61,548 bases of DNA from an uncultured Flavobacteriales bacterium (GTDB lineage Bacteria > Bacteroidota > Bacteroidia > Flavobacteriales_D > Sanyastnellaceae), in assembly GCA_937881575.1 (NCBI GenBank), contig CALGEI010000079.1, positions 1 through 61,548 on the forward strand, written 5' to 3'. The position numbers were made by a program, and so were the translations under genes. The notes under the pieces are model-generated. The model worked only from the letters and a program-made list of their open reading frames with translations, had not been told where the DNA came from and made no database searches. This document shows, piece after piece, positions 56,790-58,739 of this stretch (positions within the stretch are counted from its first letter, which is position 1; each line of letters starts with the position of its first letter).

Positions 56790-58739
56790 TCAGCGTTCTG
56801 GGAAGTCATTCTCGACATTCACCTCAATCCGCTTGTCTTGATTGGCCAATTGCCACGCCGTGTGAAACACGAGTTTCCCAATTTCAGCCGTCTTTTCGTA
56901 ATGAATTTTCTCTGGATCATCCCCTGGTTTGTGGTAATCCTCATGCACTCCACTGAAGTAAAAAATAACCGGGATGTTGTGCTTTGCGAAGTTGTAATGA
57001 TCAGATCGATAGTAAAACCGATTCGGATCATCCGGTGCGTTGAATGTATAGTCTAAAGTGAGTTTCGTGTGCGCGGTATTCGCGTTCTCGCTCATCTCAT
57101 GCAACTCCGTCGAGAGCTTATCCGAACCAATCAAGTAAACATAGCGATCGTCATCTGGGTGTGCTTCATCCGTTCGGCCGATCATATCTATGTTGAGGTT
57201 TGCAACTGTGTTTTCCAAAGGCCATACAGGGTGATCAGAGTACCACTCGCTTCCCAACAACCCTTTCTCTTCACCCACCACCGTCATCAGCAACACACTG
57301 CGTCTTGGGCCTTCTCCTGCGTCTACAGCCGCCATAAATGCTTGAGCCAACTCCAGGACTGTCACGGTGCCTGAACCATCATCGTCTGCTCCGTTGTGAA
57401 TTTCACCATCAATGATACCTACATGATCATAGTGGGCTGTAATCACCACCACCTCATCACGCAACACAGAGTCCCGACCCGGAATGTATCCCAACACATT
57501 TTGCGTGTTGAATTGTCCTGAGCGGTCATTTAAATTGAAAGACCAATTCCCTAGCGGCAACAACTCCGCTAGCAATTCAACCCCTTTCAATTTCTTCTTT
57601 TCAATCTTTTTCCAGCTCTTCAAGGATGATTGCTTCCACCAGCCTGCTGTAGCGCTCCCTTCCATAAAGAATGTCGGCAATCGTGTTCCCTCTGTTTCTT
57701 TTGGGTCAGGTTGATCCAAACGCATCGATTTGCGCATCAACCAGGGTTTTAAACGGCCTTTATAAGCATTCAATCCTTCACCAATAACCACCAGAGCCCT
57801 TGCTCCATTGGCTTCTGCATTCAATCGCTTCTTCTCTAAACCATCTCGCCAATTCTCTTCCGCAGCACCCTTTGTTCCAGAGAACACGATCGCCACAACC
57901 CCGTTAAAATCCTGACCTTCAAAATCCTTTTCTTCACCCCACGACGCAAACACCATGGGAAGATTTTCCATGGATTTATCACGCATTCCTGGGTAAAAAA
58001 CATAGTCCTCTAAAAAATCGAAAGACGTACCTGAGACAGTCAGGTCCCCTCCTAGGATCTGCGATCGCACCATGGGTACATCTTGATAATAACCTGCTTC
58101 CTGATACGGTTCAATGCCTACGGATTGAAAATAACTCGCTATATAAGCAGCTGCTTTTTCACACCCTGGTTCACCGGTTTCTCTGCCTTCAAACGCATCA
58201 CTCGCTAAAACCGTCAAATGATTTTCCAAATCATTCGGCTCAATGGTAGCCGCCCATTTCGTTGATTGAGCAGACAACGAACCGCACAACCCCATCAACA
58301 ACGCGAGTCCCGCACACGCTATTTTACTCACCCGTTCATTGTGTCGTCCCCCTTCGAATTCCTCCGATAAAAAAGCCCGGACAACTTCCAAAGCTTCTTC
58401 TTCTTCAATGAATCGCGCTGGGATACAAACCACGTTGGCGTCATTGTGCTTTCGAGTCAATAACGCGATTTCTCGATTCCATGCAATCCCAGCACGCACC
58501 GATTGGTGCTTATTCGCTGTCATCGCTACACCGTTTGCCGATCCACAAATCAATATTCCACGGTCCACCAATCCGTTCTCAACGTCAAGCGCTACTTGGT
58601 GTGCATGGTCCGGATAATCCACACGATCTTCTGTATCCGTGCCGCGATTGGTGACTTCATGCCCTTTGGATATTAACTCCTCTGTGATTACCTTTTTCAG
58701 TGCCGGCCCGGCGTGATCGCCACCTATCGAAATGCGCAT
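56790..58739 (-). CDS. Fused frame: ribose-5-phosphate isomerase B, signal peptide, M28 peptidase
   Basis: One open frame of 649 codons. Residues 1-140 are RpiB: ISIGGDHAGPALKKVI (base/acid pair), ILICGSANGVAMTANKHQSV with the catalytic Cys, NVVCIPARFI, and FEGGRHNERVSKI, where normal RpiB ends. Without a stop the frame runs into AGLALLMGLCGSLSAQS (about 143-159), a signal-peptide core, and then an exported M28 metallopeptidase with a PA-like insert. Metal and catalytic sites are VVITAHYDHVG, GADDDGSGTVTVLEL, VVGEEKGLLGSEWY, NLNIDMIGRT and YRSDHYNFAKHN. A GTG at 58331 could start the peptidase alone. Either a true fusion, an internal start, or loss of the rpiB stop. Confidence 0.85.
   Translation of the reverse strand: MRISIGGDHAGPALKKVITEELISKGHEVTNRGTDTEDRVDYPDHAHQVALDVENGLVDRGILICGSANGVAMTANKHQSVRAGIAWNREIALLTRKHNDANVVCIPARFIEEEEALEVVRAFLSEEFEGGRHNERVSKIACAGLALLMGLCGSLSAQSTKWAATIEPNDLENHLTVLASDAFEGRETGEPGCEKAAAYIASYFQSVGIEPYQEAGYYQDVPMVRSQILGGDLTVSGTSFDFLEDYVFYPGMRDKSMENLPMVFASWGEEKDFEGQDFNGVVAIVFSGTKGAAEENWRDGLEKKRLNAEANGARALVVIGEGLNAYKGRLKPWLMRKSMRLDQPDPKETEGTRLPTFFMEGSATAGWWKQSSLKSWKKIEKKKLKGVELLAELLPLGNWSFNLNDRSGQFNTQNVLGYIPGRDSVLRDEVVVITAHYDHVGIIDGEIHNGADDDGSGTVTVLELAQAFMAAVDAGEGPRRSVLLMTVVGEEKGLLGSEWYSDHPVWPLENTVANLNIDMIGRTDEAHPDDDRYVYLIGSDKLSTELHEMSENANTAHTKLTLDYTFNAPDDPNRFYYRSDHYNFAKHNIPVIFYFSGVHEDYHKPGDDPEKIHYEKTAEIGKLVFHTAWQLANQDKRIEVNVENDFPER

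Follow-up and report, generated by a model that had tools for sequence, protein, structure and literature searches.

An open frame from rpiB into an M28 peptidase gene

The window, i.e., the whole stretch of 61,548 nucleotides that was analysed, carries on its minus strand a single uninterrupted frame of 649 codons, which begins with an ATG at 58739 and reaches its stop at 56790, with no other stop in between. The nearest upstream in-frame stop lies 16 codons before this ATG. The original prediction had described an unbroken frame from 58739 that encodes a complete RpiB up to its C-terminal motif and then continues through a signal-peptide core into an M28 peptidase, and this description holds throughout. 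The features of the locus are the following.

56790..58739, minus strand: fused gene rpiB::M28, 649 aa plus stop in one frame, a frame that is open in 44 genes
58320..58739, minus strand: complete RpiB domain, residues 1-140, assigned by Pfam PF02502, conserved residues and the PDB relatives 3he8 and 2vvr
58320..58352, minus strand: GGRHNERVSKI (residues 130-140), the C-terminal tail of RpiB and proposed n-region as well, assigned by its charge and the missing start of M28's own
58269..58319, minus strand: predicted h-/c-region of a signal peptide, ACAGLALLMGLCGSLSA, with a predicted cut at A157/Q158, assigned by hydropathy and the [AGSTC]Q site
58329..58331, minus strand: in-frame GTG (Val137), a candidate internal start that is not conserved, from the codon comparison in the 44 fused genes
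56793..58268, minus strand: predicted mature M28 peptidase, residues 158-649, with the M28 core at 414-626, assigned by Pfam PF04389, conservation and Foldseek

The Pfam family LacAB_rpiB (PF02502) matches residues 3-140 over the whole profile (positions 1-138 of 138, E 3.9e-50, 169.8 bits, cut-off 24.7), and Peptidase_M28 (PF04389) matches residues 414-626 (E 2.7e-38, 132.1 bits, cut-off 21.3). The RpiB part exceeds the cut-off of the NCBIfam subfamily NF004051 (160.4 vs. 135) and narrowly misses the NCBIfam equivalog TIGR01120 (136.1 vs. 138.65). The RpiB tail GGRHNERVSKI is directly followed by ACAGLALLMGLCGSLSAQ; the signal-peptide core and the A/Q site comprise about residues 141-158, that is ACAGLALLMGLCGSLSA and then Q. 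The GC content is alike in the RpiB part (0.496), the M28 part (0.468) and the window (0.497).

Both enzymes appear to be intact in all fused genes that were compared. In RpiB the residues D8, H9, C65, H98 and N99, which we take to be the active-site Asp-His, Cys and His-Asn, are invariant in 44/44 fused genes, as are R132 and R136, presumably phosphate-binding arginines of the equally presumed phosphate-binding tail GGRHxxRVxKI. In the M28 part H436, D452, E490, E491 and D518 are kept in 44/44 genes and H603 in 43/44, the one remaining row having a gap there; presumably these residues (H436, D452, E490/E491, D518 and H603) are the metal ligands. One fused gene, L126, ends at a contig end. In 17 pairs of fused genes, several of them with saturated synonymous sites (dS), RpiB has a dN/dS of 0.026-0.114; for M28 the range is 0.034-0.132 over the 15 pairs that allowed dS to be estimated. 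Values this low show strong purifying selection on RpiB and M28 alike.

The fused RpiB is the single RpiB of this genome, and RpiA (PF06026) was detected in 0/100 genomes searched, the own genome included, with a control that was positive in 8/14. The fused RpiB is therefore the only ribose-5-phosphate isomerase found here.

PDB relatives of the RpiB part are 3he8 and 2vvr, and the best Foldseek match of the M28 part is the aminopeptidase 2ek8. An extension at the C-terminus of RpiB seems to be tolerated, because RpiB chains in the PDB run past the aligned end (3he8, aligned to 141 of 149; 2vvo, to 144 of 162). AlphaFold2, run with 47 aligned sequences, gave two folded domains with a mean pLDDT of 80.8 and a pTM of 0.63. 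Residues 1-130 reach a pLDDT of 88-97 per ten-residue block and the junction at 137-156 stays below 50, with a helix at 145-163 running through it at low confidence; parts of M28 are low too, including the active-site loop 440-451.

Distribution and origin of the fused gene

Within one Flavobacteriales family, 43 of the 114 genomes have the fused open frame, in a total of 44 genes that spread over six genera (g1 19, g3 10, g14 10, g9 2, g10 2 and g13 1, with the second fused gene of genome G152 counted under g14). This number was reached from 53 fused rows after nine copies of the same genes (L001, L038-L044 and L129) were dropped. Of the other family genomes, 49 have a separate junction that could be read and 22 have no junction read; nine of these 22 are drafts of 63-92% completeness with no RpiB match, among them G056 with M28 at a contig end, and were treated as missing data. 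The window's genus is represented by 21 relatives, 18 of them with the fused frame; the other three, draft assemblies of 73-91% completeness, show no RpiB match at all. The two fused genes of G152 (L032 and L127, genus g14) differ in that one of them groups with the window's genus; G152 is probably a mixed bin.

Outside the family, none of the matches listed covers both parts without a stop, neither in the order search (399 genomes) nor in the phylum search (395 genomes); as both listings are truncated, distant or weak fusions may have escaped. Among 80 loci listed, 51 had an RpiB match, and these comprise 44 separate genes and seven fused ones, all copies of family genes already counted. A named record exists for seven of the fused genes, L038-L044, and the genome behind each is a metagenome-assembled one that bears the label Flavobacteriales, Crocinitomicaceae or Bacteroidetes; no isolate is among them.

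This origin from metagenomes is what could speak for an artefact, be it a faulty assembly, a spurious frameshift or an rpiB stop lost recently and locally; the original prediction had considered an assembly error and the loss of the stop. However, the fused relatives are 50-89% identical to the window's gene and are open at both ends and across the junction, and strong purifying selection acts on the RpiB and M28 parts. Chance and assembly error are ruled out because the open frame is conserved in 44 genes of 43 genomes, and a local mutation falls with them, the same frame being present in six genera. The open frame is thus confirmed as genuine, and the probability left to an artefact is next to nothing. 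Annotators should thus not take a chain of some 650 aa that joins RpiB to M28 in these bacteria for a mis-assembly. The search for a stop codon in related genomes, which the original prediction had proposed as a check, does find one in sister genera, but it marks an older two-gene state and does not make the fusion an artefact.

This two-gene state, with rpiB and M28 separate and adjacent, was found in 49 further family loci with a junction that could be read and in one locus of another family. In the family the stop of the separate rpiB mostly comes directly behind KIAC(S), KINC, KICM or similar, and the separate M28 carries its own signal peptide at the N-terminus. When the ATG nearest to the end of rpiB is taken as the M28 start, its offset is -4 (ATGA overlap) in 24/50 loci and -1 in 8/50. 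Stop/start overlaps are associated with translational coupling in PMC6728339 and PMC10666635, and according to the former Bacteroidetes make little use of Shine-Dalgarno motifs; the ancestral pair was probably translationally coupled. In the ATGA pairs rpiB and M28 lie in different frames, so the loss of the stop alone would be insufficient and a frame-changing event was needed for the fusion.

The order rpiB closely before the same M28 gene also occurs far beyond the family, in Sphingobacteriaceae (L049, L051, L053 and L061) and in Saprospiraceae and Lewinellaceae (L069 and L094), and the linkage looks older than the fusion.

In a tree of 101 RpiB+M28 rows, 42 fused rows (g1, g3, g9, g13 and g14) form one clade with an SH-aLRT of 99, and the second fused group is the pair L029 and L128 inside g10, a genus whose remaining 13 rows are of the separate type. 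When 45 of these 101 rows were used for a more careful tree, the same two changes of the fused state appeared; over 200 bootstrap trees the 5-95% range of changes is 2-2 and 0% have one, and a single fused clade is rejected (p-AU 0.00039). These trees were calculated with LG+G4 without a mixture model, and one row, L026, stands out by its long branch and unusual composition. Both the 45- and the 101-row tree fit two fusions or one fusion followed by fission alike. Two independent fusions at the same residue are nevertheless likelier than one fusion with an exact fission, because the ATGA overlap is kept in 13/13 separate g10 genes and in four loci of g12 and g2.

The junction and its possible start codons

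The junction was judged by simple tests of hydropathy, charge and a short motif. The eleven residues GGRHxxRVxKI have a net charge of +2 to +4 across the 44 fused genes, and the core that follows is uncharged over 13-26 residues. Its best 12-residue mean hydropathy is 2.18-3.25 in the 44 fused genes (2.39 in the window's gene) versus 1.51-3.47 in the 50 separate M28 genes. The distance from KI to the -1 residue is 12-20 residues (median 17), and an [AGSTC]Q site is present in 44/44 fused genes, whereas control windows of 22 residues, taken from the body of M28, contain one in 15.5% of cases; the separate M28 relatives have this type of cleavage site too. The 18 residues after KI change fast, with a dN above that of both flanking domains in 16/17 fused pairs, yet they remain hydrophobic and free of charge, as would be expected if selection acts on their signal character.

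A basic n-region, a hydrophobic uncharged core and a small residue before the cut are thus all present, as in a Sec signal. The fused genes lack M28's own start codon and basic n-region, and the core directly follows the last residues of RpiB, so that the make-up of the junction would be that of a signal sequence whose basic n-region is supplied by the RpiB tail. A Sec signal is expected at the N-terminus, whereas this one starts at about residue 130 of the conserved frame; by its features it may work like a Sec signal, though not as an ordinary N-terminal one.

The signal peptidase I family is present in this genome. Its match (L183 and L184; G000 C116:21347-22501) is split over two stretches within a single open frame of 558 codons, where an insert separates the domain halves.

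A further observation concerns the separate M28 signal peptides, of which 13/50 carry a motif FH[V/G][N/D/E][H/Q/R] just before the cleavage site (L030, L153, L154, L156, L158, L160, L161, L163, L164, L165, L166, L171 and L172). The motif occurs in five genera (g7, g8, g11, g17 and g19) and in 0/44 fused genes; its polar and histidine residues are odd at this place, and the rest of the signal peptide is variable.

The original prediction had named an internal GTG start at 58331 as one explanation of the frame. This GTG is codon 137, a position that is Val in 42/44 fused genes and GTG in 19, where 17.2 are expected from the genes' own Val codon use (P 0.32), and in 9/44 fused genes the stretch from codon -14 to codon +5 around the end of KI is free of ATG, GTG and TTG. 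These counts lend no support to an internal start in general, and the GTG was rejected as a general mechanism for lack of conservation. In the window's species it may still act, and the signal peptide that it would begin there (MSKIACAG...) is well formed. In the fourth codon that follows KI, the close relatives L010, L012 and L017 have ATG, GTG and GTA, respectively, in one column, and the ten genes of genus g3 have ATG (8), GTG (1) or TTG (1); a start codon at the junction is thus kept in 10/10 genes within g3 alone and varies across the fused set, and by this codon pattern an internal start in g3 is possible.

A conserved frameshift that releases RpiB is likewise unsupported. From 6 codons before to 14 codons after the end of KI, out-of-frame stops occur in 39/44 genes in the +1 frame and in 21/44 in the +2 frame, with the commonest position shared by 14/44 and 19/44, respectively, and none by all 44.

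A predicted polyprotein and its relation to known systems

Judged by conservation, two parts of functional type would lie in one frame with a signal between them, as in a polyprotein. For its origin and processing we propose the following course. An older rpiB-M28 pair would have lost its overlapping stop and start (ATGA) together with the own start and n-region of the M28 signal, so that RpiB would run in frame into the hydrophobic core of the former M28 signal peptide. From this frame one precursor would be made, whose RpiB part would emerge first and fold in the cytosol. Its basic tail GGRHxxRVxKI would double as the n-region of an internal Sec signal and be held inside, and the internal signal would direct the chain to the translocon, with M28 crossing the inner membrane (N-in, C-out). 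Signal peptidase I would most likely cut at SLSA/Q and free the M28 peptidase to the periplasm, and RpiB would stay behind at the inner face, its short tail embedded in the membrane, unless this tail is trimmed by a protease acting within the membrane.

According to PMC9360617, positive charges before a hydrophobic stretch set its orientation (positive-inside rule), preproteins can stay anchored by an uncut signal, and RseP cuts signal peptides within the membrane. It is by analogy with these anchored preproteins and with RseP trimming that we place the hydrophobic tail of RpiB at the inner face. A single product in this species, its topology, its cleavage and the membrane location of RpiB are what we infer from the features of the frame.

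We regard it as likely that one precursor arose through the lost overlap of the gene pair, that the RpiB tail serves as n-region and that M28 is exported and most likely cut. The original prediction had suggested a cleavage after SLSAQ that yields two products, with RpiB released inside and the peptidase outside. Of its three explanations this is the best supported, given the basic stretch, the core and the [AGSTC]Q site in 44/44 fused genes, and a cut in the SLSAQ region is likely, but the likely point is A157/Q158, before the Q, and RpiB would not be freed but keep a hydrophobic C-terminal tail. On balance, and with less confidence than for the precursor itself, we favour a polyprotein in which the sole, presumably essential RpiB is tethered to the inner face as a by-product of peptidase export, with its tail doubling as n-region, and which arose twice.

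The same anatomy could be read as an uncut bifunctional membrane protein with RpiB in the cytosol, one transmembrane helix and M28 tethered in the periplasm, and the low-confidence AlphaFold2 helix through the junction would fit such an anchor. We consider this unlikely, as the cleavage site is found in every fused gene and in the separate relatives as well, and the stretches are short, like those of signal peptides and not like anchors. Still less room is left for a nested gene, in which the ATG product would be RpiB with a tail and a separate M28 precursor would be made from an internal start (here GTG 58331, in other species another codon). Some ATG, GTG or TTG is found between codons -14 and +5 in 35/44 fused genes, and the plausible signal peptide in the window and the ten g3 genes point the same way. 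However, only 19/44 genes have a start codon before the core that keeps basic residues, and starts after KI would be without a basic n-region; together with the codon counts at Val137, the changing codon in L010, L012 and L017 and the nine genes without a candidate, this makes the nested gene distinctly improbable.

Both parts could also end up in one compartment, either by export of the whole chain or with M28 kept in the cytosol. Nothing direct speaks for this, though internal signals can in principle carry both flanking parts across a membrane. Against it stand the kept active site of the sole ribose-5-phosphate isomerase found, the net positive charge before the core, which favours N-in, and a core that stays hydrophobic, so that we rate it as highly improbable.

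If the polyprotein reading is true, a signal can function in nature behind a housekeeping enzyme of 140 residues that has already folded, and this arrangement is stable over several genera. It would also describe a route from an overlapping gene pair to a membrane-spanning polyprotein, with the two-gene state kept in sister genera. With this fusion one can test whether a signal deep inside a chain is accepted by Sec/SRP and signal peptidase I, and RpiB may here be an example of a central-carbon enzyme retained at the membrane.

Compared to the separate overlapping rpiB-M28 pairs of other Flavobacteriales, the genes, their order, the type of signal core and the cleavage residue are the same. 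These pairs, many of them with ATGA or TAATG and comparable to pairs coupled by termination-reinitiation, differ in that they give two proteins, with a stop after or near KIAC and, at ATGA, an M28 start in the other frame. In comparison to RpiB of known structure (3he8, 2vvr), domain and active site are complete, whereas the C-terminus is not free but runs into the signal segment. Fold and metal ligands are those of secreted M28 aminopeptidases (2ek8, 6hc6 and 7oez), but here the signal has no start and n-region of its own and lies 140 residues inside the chain. Positive charges before the hydrophobic stretch are shared with single-span membrane proteins with an uncleaved signal (PMC9360617); here, in contrast, the stretch leads into a cleavage site and a complete enzyme makes up the cytosolic part.

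Searches of an open-access library, judged by the papers listed, turned up no RpiB-M28 fusion and no chain in which an internal signal links a soluble enzyme to an exported one. The nearest precedent is the cytochrome b/c1 precursor of Bradyrhizobium japonicum (fbcH), a polyprotein that is split at its internal signal into two proteins, both of them membrane respiratory subunits of one complex. A precursor with an internal signal between two products is common to both, with the cutting known for fbcH and predicted here. The RpiB-M28 fusion would thus belong to the processed-polyprotein type, but it joins a soluble metabolic enzyme to an exported peptidase with which it has no known joint function.
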